A DNA stretch of 39,484 bases from an uncultured Clostridia bacterium (GCA_944382895.1 CALWNV010000011.1:1-39484), one strand, 5' to 3'. Shown: positions 33,413 to 39,450, counted from the first letter of the stretch. Notes: generated by a model from the letters alone, not told the origin. A program made the numbers and translations.

Positions 33413-34588
33413 TCAGCTTTTGAATATAACTTTCACAAAACGGTTTTTACCGCGACTTACCACAAGTCCGTCGCACGGCTCCACTACAAGTGCGCAATCA
33501 TCAACGGTTTCATTATTTATTTTAATCCCTTTGCCCTGAATCAATCTTCTCGCGTCTCCGTTAGATGATGCAAAACCCGCTTTTTTCAAAAGTTCAAATA
33601 TCTGGATACCGGTATCAGGAACAATCAGCTCGTCCATAACATCAGGAATACCGCCTTTTGCTATTTCTCTGTATCTTGCCTCCGCGGCCGCAACGTTATT
33701 GTCTCCGTGATACATACGGACCAGCTCACGGGCATAAATAAAATGTGCTTCACGTATATCACCGCCAAGAATCATTTTATAATCAAATTCATCAATATCC
33801 GTTGTAAGTCTGAAATAATCCTCTAAAAGCGAGTCCGGAACTTTCATTGCTTTCTCAAACATTATCTCGGGGGCCTCGTCTATACCGATATAGTTATCAA
33901 GGCTTTTGGACATCTTCTCGACGCCATCAAGGCCCGGAAGAAGAGGAAATGTTATAACATCCTGAGACGCCTGGCCATAATCTTTCTGAAGCTCTCTGCC
34001 GACAAGAAGATTAAATGTCTGATCGCTGCCGCCGACTTCTATATCCGCATTAAGAGCGACACTGTCATATCCTTGCATAAGAGGATAAAGCATTTCGTGT
34101 ACGCCTATAGCCTGTTTTGCCGCGAATCTTTTTGCAAAATCATCACGTTCCATAATTCTTGCCACAGTATATTTCCCTGCAAGAGAAAGGACATCGGCAA
34201 AAGTCATCTTGCCAAGCCAGTCTGAATTATAGACTATTGTTGTTTTTTCCTTATCAAGAATTTTGACGACCTGCTGCATATAGCTTTCAGCGTTAAGCCG
34301 TGTCTGCTCAAAAGTAAGAGGTTGACGTGTTTTAGACTTTCCAGAAGGATCTCCGATCATCCCTGTAAAATCACCGATAACAAAAATGATCTCGTGCCCG
34401 AGCTGCTGAAACAGCCTGAGCTTCCTTAAAATTACCGAATGCCCGAGATGAAGATCCGGGCGAGAAGGATCGGCTCCAAGTTTGATCTTAAGTTTTTTTC
34501 CACTTTCAAGCTTTTCTTTCAGACTTTCCAGAGAAAAAATATCTATAGCATCTCTTTCAAGTATCTTAAGCAATTCTTTATTTGTCAT
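33413..34588 (-). CDS. tyrS: Tyrosyl-tRNA synthetase (TyrZ type)
   Basis: Charges tRNA-Tyr; class I. The 391-residue product carries HLGH (47-50), TGMIGDPSGK (75-84), VGGSDQTFN and KMSKS (225-229), with a C-terminal S4 RNA-binding domain (GDARRLIQGKGIKINNE). The HLGHSVILRKLRLFQQLGHEIIFVIGDFTG segment is typical of the TyrZ branch rather than the TyrS branch. GGAGAG lies 5 bases before ATG, 11 bases after the amidase gene. It has no T-box leader of its own. Confidence 0.97.
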   Translation of the reverse strand: MTNKELLKILERDAIDIFSLESLKEKLESGKKLKIKLGADPSRPDLHLGHSVILRKLRLFQQLGHEIIFVIGDFTGMIGDPSGKSKTRQPLTFEQTRLNAESYMQQVVKILDKEKTTIVYNSDWLGKMTFADVLSLAGKYTVARIMERDDFAKRFAAKQAIGVHEMLYPLMQGYDSVALNADIEVGGSDQTFNLLVGRELQKDYGQASQDVITFPLLPGLDGVEKMSKSLDNYIGIDEAPEIMFEKAMKVPDSLLEDYFRLTTDIDEFDYKMILGGDIREAHFIYARELVRMYHGDNNVAAAEARYREIAKGGIPDVMDELIVPDTGIQIFELLKKAGFASSNGDARRLIQGKGIKINNETVDDCALVVEPCDGLVVSRGKNRFVKVIFKS

Positions 34589-34599
34589 ATGTACTCTCC

Positions 34600-37203
34600 C
34601 TACGATTGTAATCTGAAATATTCCACGACTGCGTCAGTAATACTGTCTGCCGAAAGCGCCTTGTTCCCGCTGCTCAGATACCACCCGACATCAGACGAAT
34701 TTGACATAAACAAAGTCTCAAATAAAACTGACGGGAAATAGCAAAAACGCGAAACCTTATACATACCCATCGGGGATCCCCCATTTCTCAGCCCGGTCCC
34801 ATCGGTAAACCCGTCTACAAGCGTATCTGCAAGAAGCGCGCTGTTACGGTAACACCACCATACGGTCGTACCTCGCGCGGAAGTGGACGAAGCGGAATTA
34901 AAATGTATGGAAATATTTATATCCGGCCCCCACTCAATAATCTCCGGAATAAGCTGATCAAGTGTTTTTGCCCATTCACCGTTATGAGAAAGTTTAACAG
35001 TAGCCCCAAGATTCTCAAGCCTTGTTTTTACCATACGGGCGAGCTCCAGATTCCAGTCTTCTTCGTAATACTTTTTTCCGTTATATGTAGCGGTCGCACC
35101 ACCTCTCATACTGTGCCCGGGATCAAGTGAGATTTTTATCCCTGAAAGAGGCTTATCGGGATCAGGAGAAAGTGAAACCGGATTCTTAAATGTTACCCTG
35201 AATGTCCCGTTTTCATACCGGGAAGTGTACCCGAAAATATAATACCGGGTCTTATATGTAAGAATAATTTTTAATGTTGACTCTCCGTCACTTTCTACTT
35301 TTACAGCAGCAAACAATTTATCGGAAATAAGGCTCGGCGCCTTTATCTCGTCCGGATTATACACACCGTACAGTGTAATCACCGCTTCATAATCACCCTG
35401 CCACACCGTACTCGAGACATTTTGTGAACATGAGATAACAAATTCAGTCGATTCTTCTGTTTCTGTAAAATACGGGGATGATACAACCGTAGGACGATAT
35501 AGTTCTCCGCCAAGATATGTCAGCTGATCTCTACGGATATACAATCCGTTCGATAAAATAGCGTATTCCGTTTTTACCGGAGGGCTGGCGGCATTATCCG
35601 CAATAACAGTACCTATAACGCTTTCTTTCATCCCCAACGGCGCAAAACAGTATTCCGTAGGACCGTACTCGTCCGAATTCCCGGTTCGTTCCATGAGTTC
35701 GGCGTTGTCGGTATTGACTTCATAAGCCGGCATAGAAGAAGGAAAGTCCGGTTCAGAAACGGTGATGTATTCTTCATAAACATTTTTTAATGTTTCGGTT
35801 ATATTTGCAGCATTTGTCTCAATATCCTTATATGAAAAAAAAGAAGCCCCGTTGACACTTTGCTTTTCATTCAGATATTCAATCTGCCGCAATATCTCTT
35901 TACTGTCTCCAAAAGCTGAATCCGGACTGTCCGCACCTTTATACGCGGCGATGCCTATATACAACTCAACACCGTATTCTCCACAAAGCTCATCCCACCA
36001 ATCAACAACGGCTTTGAACGGCGCTTTCTCATGCGCTATTTCCCAATAAACCTGAGGGCATATGTAATCCACCCAATTATTCACTATCCACGTACGGCTG
36101 TCCGCATATATATCAAAATAACTTTGCAGCGTCCATCCTATACCATCTGTACCTTCAGGCATTGAAGAATCTTTTTTTGCCCATATACCGAACGGGCTTA
36201 TCCCAAAAACGGCTTCCGAAGCTTTTTCCTTAACCGTCTCATATACTTCTTTTACAAGAAGGTTGACGTTTTCACGACGCCAATCATCAATAGACATACC
36301 GTTGCCGTATTCTTTATACGTTTCCGCATCCTCAAATCCGGAAGCGTTTTCATACGGATAAAAATAATCATCAAAATGGATCCCATCCACGTCATAATTC
36401 TCCAATATCTCTTCGACACCGGAAACAATAAGTTCTCTCACCTGAGGAAGCCCCGGATCATACCACAACCCGGCAGGCGTTGTACCGTCTTCCGAAAAAT
36501 GTTTCACGACCCAATCCGGATGAAGAACAGCAGGATTTGATTCAGCAAGAGCCGACACGGAGTGCGAAGAAGACGATATTCTGTATGGATTTATCCATGC
36601 GTGCAAAGAAATGTTTTTGTCATGTGCCGCCTGTATAAAATACTCAAGACAATCAAGAGGAGCAGGGTCTCCTTGATTCTCGACTAAAATAGTGGATGTC
36701 GGGAAAATCGATGAATCATAAAAGGAATCTGAATATGGACGGACCTGGAAAAAAATCGTATTCAACCCGTTTTTTGCGGTAGTTTCCACGATTTTATCTA
36801 TTTCAGCTTTAAGCTTGTCCGCGTTAAGATTATCATATGCCGGGAAGTCCCCTGCTGCAGTAGCGACCCATACAGCTCTGGTACTCTCGCTTGTATTCGC
36901 AACGAACATATTACCTCCGGTCAAGGCCGACACCATGCAAAACCTCGCATCTTCTGTCGTAACTTTACCGTCTCTGTTATAATCCGCACAAGTCAAAGCC
37001 GCAGAAGAAAGCTCTGTTTTACCGACAGCCGCCCTTAAAATCATCCTCGCATCCGTACTGGTTATCTTTCCGTCCAGATCAACGTCTCCAACATAATACG
37101 ACGCTGCAAAGGAAAATATGGCGCAGCAAGAAAATACGACGACAAAAACAGCTGCAAAAACAAAAAACTTGATTTTACCTATACCTTTACTTTCAAATTC
37201 CAT
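34600..37203 (-). CDS. Secreted dockerin - GHL10 glycosidase - N-acetylmuramoyl-L-alanine amidase fusion
   Basis: An 867-residue envelope enzyme. Residues 1-35 form a signal peptide (hydrophobic FVFAAVFVVVFSCCAIF, probable cut near FAA). Residues 38-97 are a dockerin with two calcium loops (D40, D42, D44, D51 and D74, N76, D78, D85) for binding a cohesin. Residues 108-450 are a GHL10 (PF02638) barrel with RAVWVATAAGDFP, FQVRPYSDSFY, LHAWINPYR and GIHFDDYFYPY (D278/D279). A beta-rich linker follows. Residues 688-867 are an Amidase_3 domain with zinc ligands H697, E714 or E715 and H767, and catalytic E829. GHL10 member DigH (YddW) of E. coli cuts peptidoglycan glycans already stripped of peptides, which an amidase would produce. 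GGGAG lies 8 bases before ATG. It overlaps its GHL10 neighbour by 11 bases. Confidence 0.88.
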   Translation of the reverse strand: MEFESKGIGKIKFFVFAAVFVVVFSCCAIFSFAASYYVGDVDLDGKITSTDARMILRAAVGKTELSSAALTCADYNRDGKVTTEDARFCMVSALTGGNMFVANTSESTRAVWVATAAGDFPAYDNLNADKLKAEIDKIVETTAKNGLNTIFFQVRPYSDSFYDSSIFPTSTILVENQGDPAPLDCLEYFIQAAHDKNISLHAWINPYRISSSSHSVSALAESNPAVLHPDWVVKHFSEDGTTPAGLWYDPGLPQVRELIVSGVEEILENYDVDGIHFDDYFYPYENASGFEDAETYKEYGNGMSIDDWRRENVNLLVKEVYETVKEKASEAVFGISPFGIWAKKDSSMPEGTDGIGWTLQSYFDIYADSRTWIVNNWVDYICPQVYWEIAHEKAPFKAVVDWWDELCGEYGVELYIGIAAYKGADSPDSAFGDSKEILRQIEYLNEKQSVNGASFFSYKDIETNAANITETLKNVYEEYITVSEPDFPSSMPAYEVNTDNAELMERTGNSDEYGPTEYCFAPLGMKESVIGTVIADNAASPPVKTEYAILSNGLYIRRDQLTYLGGELYRPTVVSSPYFTETEESTEFVISCSQNVSSTVWQGDYEAVITLYGVYNPDEIKAPSLISDKLFAAVKVESDGESTLKIILTYKTRYYIFGYTSRYENGTFRVTFKNPVSLSPDPDKPLSGIKISLDPGHSMRGGATATYNGKKYYEEDWNLELARMVKTRLENLGATVKLSHNGEWAKTLDQLIPEIIEWGPDINISIHFNSASSTSARGTTVWWCYRNSALLADTLVDGFTDGTGLRNGGSPMGMYKVSRFCYFPSVLFETLFMSNSSDVGWYLSSGNKALSADSITDAVVEYFRLQS

Positions 37204-38359
37204 TTTTTATACTCCCGTAAGAAAAATATATAACACCGCTGCAAACGGGTTTACTTTCAAGATAAATATTTTGTCGTTTTATCTCTCCTGCCCATGCAGG
37301 AAGATCATTTTTATATGCGGCAAGACCGATATAAAGCCTCGTGCCGGTTTTTTCACAAAGACCGCACCACCAGTCCGCAAGCGTCCCGAAAGGGGCTGCT
37401 TCATTCTCCAAGCTCCAATAAAGCTGCGGGCATACATAATCCAGAAGTCCGTCTTCGACCCATTTTTTCACATCGGCATATACATCAGAATATGCCTGTA
37501 TAGTCGCGCCCAAGCCCTCTGTCCCGTCCGGAGTTTCTTCGCTTTTATGCGCCCAGACCCCACATGGACTTACACCAAACTGGACACTTTTTGTTATTTC
37601 ACGAAGCTCAGATATGAGTGCGGTTATATTATCACGCCGAAAATCAGCAAGACTCCTCCCGTCTGAATACTTTTTATAAGAAACGCCGTCATCAAAAACA
37701 ACACTGTCATAGGGATAAAAATAATCATCCAAATGTATCCCATCTACATCATAATTTTCCACGATTTCCATGACACCGTCACATATAAGCTTTCTGACCT
37801 CGGGGATACCCGGATCATACCATAAACCCAACGGCTCCGACCCTTTGCCGTAATTCTTAATAACATATTCAGGATGGATCACCGCAGGATTATCATGCGC
37901 AAGGCCCGACATATCATGTGTAACGGAAGTTATTCTGAAAGGGTTTATCCATGCGTGAAGTTCAATTCCCTTTTCATGCGCCTTTTCAACAAAACACCCA
38001 AGCACATCTATCGGGGGATCTTTACCCTGAGTTCCCGTTATCACCGCGGAAGAAGGGAATATATCAGACTTATACAACGCGTCAGAATAAGGTCGAACCT
38101 GTAAAAATATTGCAGTTATTCCGTTATCGGCACAAGTCTGTACGATTTTCTCCGCTTCATCAACAAGAGCTTCAGCCGAAAGGTTCTGACCGGACGGGTA
38201 ATCTATATTAGCGGCAGTCGCGACCCAAACACCTTTCATGTAATATGTTTCCTCCTCGCCTCCGACCGGCAGCTCTCCTGCCGGGAAAGCGTGTTTGCCT
38301 GAACATCCTGATACAAATACCAGTAAAAACATAACACAGGCCAAAGCCAACCGATTCAT
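37193..38359 (-). CDS. GHL10 family glycosidase lipoprotein (DigH-like)
   Basis: A 388-residue lipoprotein: MNRLALACVMFLLVFVSGC gives a lipobox with the modified Cys at 19, so it is tethered outside the membrane. The rest is a single GHL10 domain with MKGVWVATAANIDYPSG, FLQVRPYSDALY, LHAWINPFR, GIHLDDYFYPY (D211/D212), FGVSPCGVWAHK and YVCPQLYW. It is plainly a paralogue of the GHL10 part of the next gene, from which it probably arose by duplication. The characterised relative DigH cleaves denuded peptidoglycan strands; other GHL10 proteins are uncharacterised. Start: GGAG about 9 bases before ATG; the ATG shares one base with the stop of the gene before it. Confidence 0.9.
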   Translation of the reverse strand: MNRLALACVMFLLVFVSGCSGKHAFPAGELPVGGEEETYYMKGVWVATAANIDYPSGQNLSAEALVDEAEKIVQTCADNGITAIFLQVRPYSDALYKSDIFPSSAVITGTQGKDPPIDVLGCFVEKAHEKGIELHAWINPFRITSVTHDMSGLAHDNPAVIHPEYVIKNYGKGSEPLGLWYDPGIPEVRKLICDGVMEIVENYDVDGIHLDDYFYPYDSVVFDDGVSYKKYSDGRSLADFRRDNITALISELREITKSVQFGVSPCGVWAHKSEETPDGTEGLGATIQAYSDVYADVKKWVEDGLLDYVCPQLYWSLENEAAPFGTLADWWCGLCEKTGTRLYIGLAAYKNDLPAWAGEIKRQNIYLESKPVCSGVIYFSYGSIKNGI

Positions 38360-39063
38360 TATTTTTTTCTCCGTATTAAAATTATCGGGGTTTGCTGATC
38401 ATCCTGACCGGCAGGATTATCACGAACTATCTCCTCAAGAATCCTGTCCGGGATATCCAGACAGGCTGCTTTCCCGAGAATTGCAACGCTTATATCACAT
38501 GCGTCAACTATCATTGACTTTATCCCGAGCTTCTCATATATCTCGTCACAAACGCGGCCGGGGTTTTCCGGATTAAGTATCCCGTAATTGACGTATTCGC
38601 TAAAAGAAATATCATAATCGATAAGTCCGTCAATCCCCTCTACCTGATGTCCACAGACCTTATAAAAAACTCCTTTAATACCGAAAAGTTTAGTAACTGC
38701 GGAACAAAACGCGGCAAACAAAACACGAATAAGCCCGCATTGCATTATTACCAATTGCATTTTGTGAGGAGTCCCGGCTCCCGGTCCTGCTGCCGTGACA
38801 CGAACTCGCTTGGATAAAAACTTTGCCCAGAATCCGGGATGGATATCTTTACGCATGACTATCCTTTTCTGACATAAAGCAATGATTTTTTCGCTGATTG
38901 AAATAAAGTCTCCCTCTTCAATATACGGTTTTGCAAATTCTTTTATTACTTCAATATAATCATCGCCTATATTGACAAAGCGTGTACGTATCGCAAACCG
39001 CTGATAAGTCACACCTTCGACTGTACGCTCCACAGCTTTATTATCATTTGATGTTAGATCCAA
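38359..39063 (-). CDS. CofE-like protein (coenzyme F420-0:L-glutamate ligase family)
   Basis: A 234-residue member of the COG1478/CofE-like group. FISISEKIIALCQKR and VVGGDDY-type patterns (here FVNIGDDYIEVIKEFAKPYI) are typical, and the C-terminal part ends SVAILGKA and a short basic tail. True CofE adds glutamate to F420-0, but Clostridia of this kind usually lack F420 and nothing else for F420 synthesis is here, so another amide-forming role is likely. It shares an operon with two cell-wall-type GHL10 genes. The frame extends to a GTG at 39081, but AAGGAG lies 9 bases before the TTG at 39063, giving MDLTSNDNKAV. Function is inferred with caution. Confidence 0.7.
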   Translation of the reverse strand: MDLTSNDNKAVERTVEGVTYQRFAIRTRFVNIGDDYIEVIKEFAKPYIEEGDFISISEKIIALCQKRIVMRKDIHPGFWAKFLSKRVRVTAAGPGAGTPHKMQLVIMQCGLIRVLFAAFCSAVTKLFGIKGVFYKVCGHQVEGIDGLIDYDISFSEYVNYGILNPENPGRVCDEIYEKLGIKSMIVDACDISVAILGKAACLDIPDRILEEIVRDNPAGQDDQQTPIILIRRKK

Positions 39064-39105
39064 AACTTCAGTCTCCTTCACAAAATATTGAACAACAGCA
39101 AAAAA

Positions 39106-39450
39106 TCAAATGATTTTTTCGCCCATGTTTTTCCCACCTAAAAGATGGAAGTGAAGATGCGCAATAGTCTGTCCGGCATCAGTTCCGCAATTATTTATAA
39201 CACGATATCCGTTCTCAAGACCTTCCGACACAGCTACTCTACGAACAGCCAACATAATCTTTCCTATCATATCGGCATTTTCAGGCGTTATATCATTAAG
39301 TGAAGACATTATATGTTTTTTCGGAATAAAGATTATATGCACAGGAGCCTGAGGCGCGATATCGCGAAAAGCCAAAACATCTTCATCCTCATACACTTTC
39401 TATGATATAATAGCTCCCTCTGCAATTTTACAAAAAATACAATCAGGCAT
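39106..39450 (-). pseudogene. HIT family (histidine triad) nucleotide-binding protein, interrupted by an in-frame amber codon
   Basis: HIT proteins hydrolyse adenosine phosphoramidates and related nucleotides. The ATG at 39450 has GGGAG 8 bases upstream and opens MPDCIFCKIAEGAIIS, with the CxxC zinc pair typical of the family. Codon 17 (39402-39400) is TAG, where relatives usually have Lys (…PSKKVYED). The frame then continues KVYEDEDVLAFRDIAPQAPVH to the active-site HLHFHLLGG and a normal end. From the next possible start, GTG at 39396, 96 codons are open, but the nearest purine-rich site is about 17 bases away. TAG is used as an ordinary stop by yqeK and the GH-D-like gene, so general recoding is unlikely. 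A fresh nonsense mutation, restart or sequence error fits best. Confidence 0.8.

Follow-up and report, generated by a model that had tools for sequence, protein, structure and literature searches.

The locus

The stretch of DNA analysed here, referred to as the window, is 39,484 nucleotides long and comes from an uncultured Clostridia bacterium (GCA_944382895.1, CALWNV010000011.1:1-39484); it is contig C11 of draft genome G000, which totals 1.79 Mb in 122 contigs and is 92.8% complete. Its minus strand carries a gene for an 867-residue protein that unites a dockerin, a GHL10 barrel and an amidase domain, and that is probably a cell-wall hydrolase held at the surface by a cohesin. A second gene, for a GHL10 lipoprotein, overlaps it. 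Both open reading frames (ORFs) and their overlap lie where the first-pass annotation had placed them (window coordinates throughout):

34600-37203, minus strand: predicted secreted protein of 867 amino acids (aa), Dockerin - GHL10 - (SH3-like/AMIN-like) - Amidase_3 (ORF, Pfam, AlphaFold and Foldseek)
37102-37203, minus strand: putative signal peptide, residues 1-34, a hydrophobic run with ...SFAA (sequence inspection)
36946-37089, minus strand: type I dockerin, residues 39-86, two intact calcium-binding loops, "DAR-type" (ITSTDARMIL...VTTEDARFCM) (Pfam, own-genome search, alignment)
35938-36879, minus strand: GHL10 catalytic barrel, residues 109-422 (Pfam, phmmer to Cwp19, Foldseek)
35134-35763, minus strand: low-confidence stretch, then a beta-rich, putatively SH3-like and AMIN-like region, residues 481-690 (fold matches, alignment with relatives)
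34627-35133, minus strand: Amidase_3 (N-acetylmuramoyl-L-alanine amidase) domain, residues 691-859 (Pfam, alignments)
37193-38359, minus strand: GHL10 lipoprotein, 388 aa, lipobox VSGC, tandem paralogue (ORF, Pfam, tree)
37193-37203, minus strand: 11-base overlap of the lipoprotein and fusion genes (sequence)
38359-39081, minus strand: F420-ligase-like protein (Pfam, comparison of loci)
33413-34588, minus strand: tyrosyl-tRNA synthetase, directly downstream, with no part in the function (Pfam)

Domain architecture and structure models

The Pfam and fold matches of both proteins are far above chance. In the fusion protein, Dockerin_1 scores 37.2 bits (cut-off 22.9), GHL10 209 bits (cut-off 27.9) and Amidase_3 86 bits (cut-off 27), while GHL10 occupies residues 41-352 of the lipoprotein at 218 bits (cut-off 27.9). 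The dockerin combines the type I profile with two complete calcium loops (D40/D42/D44/D51 and D74/N76/D78/D85). Key residues accompany the profiles of the two catalytic domains as well: the Amidase_3 zinc ligands H697, E714 and H767 and the catalytic E829 vary little or not at all in an alignment of 32 relatives, and the same holds for most positions of the GHL10 signatures HAWINPYR (201-208) and DGIHFDDYFYP (273-283) across 33 aligned rows. The domain assignments made at first pass, together with the zinc and catalytic residues and the intact calcium loops, were thus all borne out.

Among solved structures, Cwp19 of C. difficile is the top match of both GHL10 domains (phmmer, E of 5e-85 for the fusion and 9e-83 for the lipoprotein), with 39-40% identity over the whole barrel, and LytH and CwlV are the top matches of the amidase domain in sequence searches. 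The first-pass annotation had taken E. coli DigH as its functional analogue; the best match among solved structures is Cwp19.

A full-length AlphaFold model built on 33 rows, with folds searched by Foldseek, has a mean predicted local distance difference test score (pLDDT) of 81.9 and a predicted template modelling score (pTM) of 0.50. The barrel and the amidase mostly reach about 85-98, and a linker at residues 477-545 falls below 50. Template modelling (TM) scores are 0.95 against solved Cwp19 (on target; root-mean-square deviation [rmsd] 1.8) and 0.90 against LytH. Residues 481-867, modelled separately (pLDDT 87.6), find their best fold matches in the SH3b-amidase YrvJ of B. subtilis and the AMIN-amidase AmiC of E. 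coli. The middle region is therefore read as SH3-like plus AMIN-like, a putative identity since both alignments span two domains at high rmsd.

A GHL10-amidase family with an exchanged N-terminus

Significant matches to the fusion protein were found in 45 of 59 relatives, many with both GHL10 and Amidase_3, and a scan of genome contigs yielded further proteins with both domains, including one of Pseudobacteroides cellulosolvens (L114). GHL10 and Amidase_3 on one chain are common in Clostridia, which rules out the fusion as a unique invention. The first-pass annotation had regarded it as special; it even recurs at the corresponding locus of genomes from its own family.

The fusion belongs to this Clostridia GHL10-Amidase_3 family by its domain order and by sharing its locus with the same-family orthologues. 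Fifteen family loci hold a GHL10-amidase gene that lacks a dockerin. Where the N-terminus of such a protein is complete (about 1,400 aa), the order is five Big_2 domains, GHL10, about 390 aa and Amidase_3. At most of these loci the gene adjoins an F420-ligase-like gene and a HIT-family gene, just as it does in the window, and the window gene is therefore a syntenic orthologue in which the N-terminus has been replaced by a dockerin and the middle shortened. The middle part measures ~210 aa in the window protein versus ~390 aa in the relatives, whose Glucodextran_B/Ig-like domain it lacks.

Only one other family member, in genome G004, has a dockerin at this position (L059, 51% identity), and an order-wide search at E<=1e-150 found no further dockerin-fusion orthologues. 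A GHL10 match with stops in G037 lies in a frame (L216) that holds GHL10; neither dockerin nor amidase was found in it. G005, of the same family and 98% complete, has 29 dockerins and 2 cohesins and gave no GHL10-amidase match at E<=1e-20.

In the GHL10 tree, the window fusion, the window lipoprotein, the G004 protein and the Big_2 clade form one supported group (99/97), and the lipoprotein is for this reason a within-family tandem duplicate. There is no clear branching order among the window and G004 copies, so the dockerin may have been acquired in a single event or in two. The tandem GHL10 pair, which had been read as a module at first pass, is ruled out as a conserved one, the pairing being confined to the window genome among the retrieved loci. 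At the overlap of the two genes, GGGAG stands ~8 bases ahead of the second ATG, which suggests that their translation may be coupled.

As for the neighbouring genes, the stop of the F420-ligase-like gene has one base in common with the start of the lipoprotein gene, and this gene is kept in the family as the upstream neighbour of the GHL10-amidase gene (74-78% identity). The HIT-family gene (39106-39450, minus strand) has an in-frame TAG at codon 17 (39402-39400) and is a pseudogene or reflects an assembly error.

Amidase, glycan cutter and dockerin have also come together elsewhere. G058, from another family, encodes an Amidase_2 - dockerin - GHL10 chain (L215, 2816-5974, minus strand) in which all domains exceed their cut-offs. 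A weaker case in G022 (L217, 2592-5036, plus strand) reads Glucosaminidase-like (25.3 bits, under the cut-off of 30.2), dockerin (22.6 bits, just under 22.9) and Amidase_3. From these chains, the combination arose at least twice and perhaps three times.

Cohesins and dockerins in the host genome

The first-pass annotation had staked the tether on the presence of cohesins. The window genome encodes seven cohesin domains in seven proteins, most of which carry a dockerin too, and 21 dockerins, and these numbers make a tether plausible. In one 2202-aa protein, on contig C67, the cohesin lies beside a C-terminal hydrophobic segment that is interrupted by the contig end and is likely a membrane anchor. 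G004 (85% complete) offers a smaller set: the three dockerin proteins found there are the GHL10-amidase enzyme, a leucine-rich repeat (LRR) protein and a cohesin-fn3 adaptor, and the last is adjoined by a cohesin-FIVAR-transmembrane protein.

Dockerins are ordinarily a mark of plant-fibre complexes. Those of the window genome are joined to CHAP-SH3-Big_2, GDSL lipase, glycerophosphodiester phosphodiesterase (GDPD), LRR and transglutaminase proteins, cohesin adaptors and phage lysins. Plant-polymer families are rare among them, with one weak GH5-like match. No multi-cohesin scaffold was found, each protein having one cohesin, in a 122-contig draft from which a scaffold could have been missed. 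The dockerin partners lack the profile of a cellulosome, and the enzyme does not qualify as a component of a plant-fibre cellulosome.

DAR-type dockerins and phage endolysins

Dockerins of the window genome fall into two groups, most having the pattern "xDAMxxFxxVAGK" (group A) and others "TDARxxL". The latter comprise the window enzyme, a cohesin protein on C22, a prophage-like endolysin and the second repeat of the GDSL protein. A strict search for the DAR type was made with a DNA pattern drawn partly from the dockerin of contig C86; the window dockerin itself is one codon short of this pattern. In IMG/VR, the pattern occurs in six contigs, and five of the six encode amidase endolysins. DAR-type dockerins are rare in bacterial genomes: among 394 genomes of the order one has the pattern, as do two among 391 of the class; two of the three proteins matched there are Amidase_3 enzymes with a dockerin (C86, and L264 in G622). 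Overall, seven of nine strict-pattern proteins are peptidoglycan amidases, mostly phage endolysins (six of eight without C86; the numbers are small). Both class-level genomes with the strict pattern, G000 and G622, also hold cohesins, as does G004.

Several phage amidase endolysins from IMG/VR end in a DAR-type dockerin (L238, L239, L240, L242, L243, L253). In one endolysin family, the C-terminus may be a dockerin (L240, L251, L253), SPOR plus half a dockerin (L252, L254), SPOR (L255, L257) or another end. The window dockerin is 54% identical to that of endolysin L242 and 46% to those of L240 and of a protein encoded on C50 in the window genome; over about 57 columns, this nearness to endolysin dockerins is only suggestive. 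The C50 protein (L248, 3-2027, minus strand; 675 aa) has an Ig/cohesin-like N-terminus, a Big_3 domain and then half a DAR-type dockerin motif.

Two contigs of the window genome carry dockerins in phage settings. On C86 (L079, 3367-4128, plus strand), an Amidase_3 endolysin with a C-terminal DAR-type dockerin is flanked by tail-fibre-like genes and a holin, the arrangement of a dockerin-bearing phage lysis cassette. On the phage contig C21 (L086, 512-1471 and 9766-12192, both minus strand), dockerins occur in an endolysin-like protein, where the dockerin is of the group A type, and in a virion-like protein. A tblastn search of the C86 endolysin against annotated phages matched only the amidase half, and the relatives retrieved for it from IMG/VR are SPOR-ended. 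The group A pattern hit four stretches of viral contigs, and both of those with a readable frame contain no dockerin.

Dockerins on phage wall-breaking enzymes suggest a wall-targeting use of dockerins. More tentatively, DAR-type dockerins may be a module dedicated to bringing peptidoglycan amidases to the wall, by which host autolysins plug into surface cohesins, while phage endolysins borrow the same dockerin, in place of or beside SPOR, and use host cohesins as a docking site for lysis. We consider this possible, and hold it at well below an even chance.

A probable cohesin-tethered wall hydrolase and its alternatives

The explanation that we favour, and regard as fairly probable, is a cohesin-tethered bifunctional peptidoglycan hydrolase (autolysin) of a gut Clostridia bacterium. 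The protein would be secreted, its Amidase_3 domain would strip stem peptides, and its Cwp19-like GHL10 domain would cut the glycan strand. In this lineage, a DAR-type dockerin stabilised by calcium has taken the place of the Ig-like (Big_2) N-terminus of same-family orthologues, and its most likely partner is a cohesin on the surface of the same cell, with the C67 cohesin or an adaptor cohesin as candidates. Anchoring would thereby have shifted from Ig-like repeats to a calcium-dependent cohesin tether. The GHL10 lipoprotein may serve as a membrane-held glycan cutter acting on the same wall from its inner face.

There is biochemical precedent for both activities. The GHL10 domain of Cwp19 acts as a lytic transglycosylase and releases, in addition, products ending in unsubstituted N-acetylmuramic acid, and Cwp19 alone also digests peptide-bearing peptidoglycan (PMC6016235); DigH breaks down the denuded glycans made by amidases (PMC12288456). 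Amidase_3 amidases provide the other activity.

Several points weigh against this explanation. Stripping before cutting is a reasonable order, but the amidase step is not required, because Cwp19 digests peptidoglycan that still bears peptides. The seven cohesins are no more than candidate partners of the dockerin, and the clearest membrane-anchored cohesin, that of C67, is broken off at a contig end. The dockerin is modelled with moderate confidence (pLDDT about 60-70), and the lipoprotein paralogue is not conserved. The behaviour of Cwp19 also favours a compatible variant, to which we give a substantial chance somewhat short of even, wherein each catalytic domain works on its own, at a site apart from the other, and the fusion serves co-delivery, not strip-then-cut on one strand. 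The long flexible linkers implied by the low pLDDT and pTM agree with such co-delivery, but the repeated joining of amidase and glycan cutter on one chain argues for a benefit of proximity.

Other alternatives concern the target or the attachment of the enzyme. An outward-facing complex, or "lyticome", that digests other bacteria or the peptidoglycan of dead cells instead of the cell's own wall would find parallels in the dockerin-bearing wall hydrolases and cellulosomal lysozyme activity reported for R. champanellensis, in the CHAP-SH3-Big_2-dockerin protein and in several cohesin-plus-dockerin adaptors of the window genome. It is nevertheless unlikely: the Big_2 version of the enzyme at the same-family locus suggests an ancestral housekeeping role in the wall, and the draft genome yielded no multi-cohesin scaffold, only one cohesin per protein. 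It is likewise doubtful that the DAR-type dockerin attaches straight to the wall, or to a partner other than a cohesin, in the manner of SPOR or SH3b. Such dockerins do occupy endolysin ends where close relatives have SPOR, or come after SPOR or CW_7, and phage endolysin dockerins are no farther from the window dockerin than are those of its own genome; by Pfam score and sequence, however, the window dockerin is a canonical two-loop dockerin, and both class-level genomes with the strict pattern, like G004, have cohesins. Finally, the PgaB poly-GlcNAc hydrolase domain is among the fold matches at lower scores, which would accord with a GHL10 domain whose substrate is some other surface polysaccharide and not peptidoglycan. 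This is very improbable given the barrel-wide identity to Cwp19, the intact signature motifs and the fused amidase.

Relation to known systems and implications

Several known systems resemble the fusion in part. Cwp19 (PDB 5oq2/5oq3) is a secreted wall enzyme having the GHL10 barrel with the same motifs and an exchangeable anchor (CWB2 repeats), but it has neither amidase domain nor dockerin. The Clostridia GHL10-Amidase_3 family shares the domain order and, in same-family members, the gene neighbourhood, whereas Big_2 repeats or nothing stand in for the dockerin and the middle is longer. DigH is analogous in function, as a cutter of amidase-made denuded glycans, yet is an enzyme separate from the amidases. 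The DAR-dockerin phage endolysins, including that of the prophage-like contig C86, combine a peptidoglycan amidase with the same dockerin type but lack GHL10 and an evident signal peptide, and their dockerin is C-terminal.

In R. champanellensis, peptidoglycan hydrolases are tied to a cohesin-dockerin system: a cellulosomal lysozyme and dockerin-bearing wall hydrolases (Morais 2016; Bensoussan 2017) are cited in passages of PMC6403190 and PMC6780208, where the "lyticome" concept is also proposed in connection with this organism. The enzyme in those passages is a GH25 lysozyme on the scaffoldin of a plant-fibre degrader, and they describe no GHL10-amidase pair. Because of this precedent, a dockerin on a wall enzyme, the novelty seen at first pass, is not new in itself. 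Among the open-access papers searched, none was found that deals with GHL10-amidase-dockerin chains or with endolysins bearing a dockerin. What is new is, first, that the trio of amidase, glycan cutter and dockerin was put together separately in one further family at least (G058) and probably in a second (G022), and, second, the link between DAR-type dockerins and peptidoglycan amidases across host and phage, which is the part most worth following.

If the favoured explanation is true, the cohesin-dockerin interaction would place wall-remodelling enzymes, and not plant-fibre enzymes, on the cell in gut bacteria that have no evident cellulosome. It would also provide a natural, calcium-dependent system for studying how amidase and glycan cutter work together within a single polypeptide, and would account for the dockerins on the phage endolysins of such bacteria.

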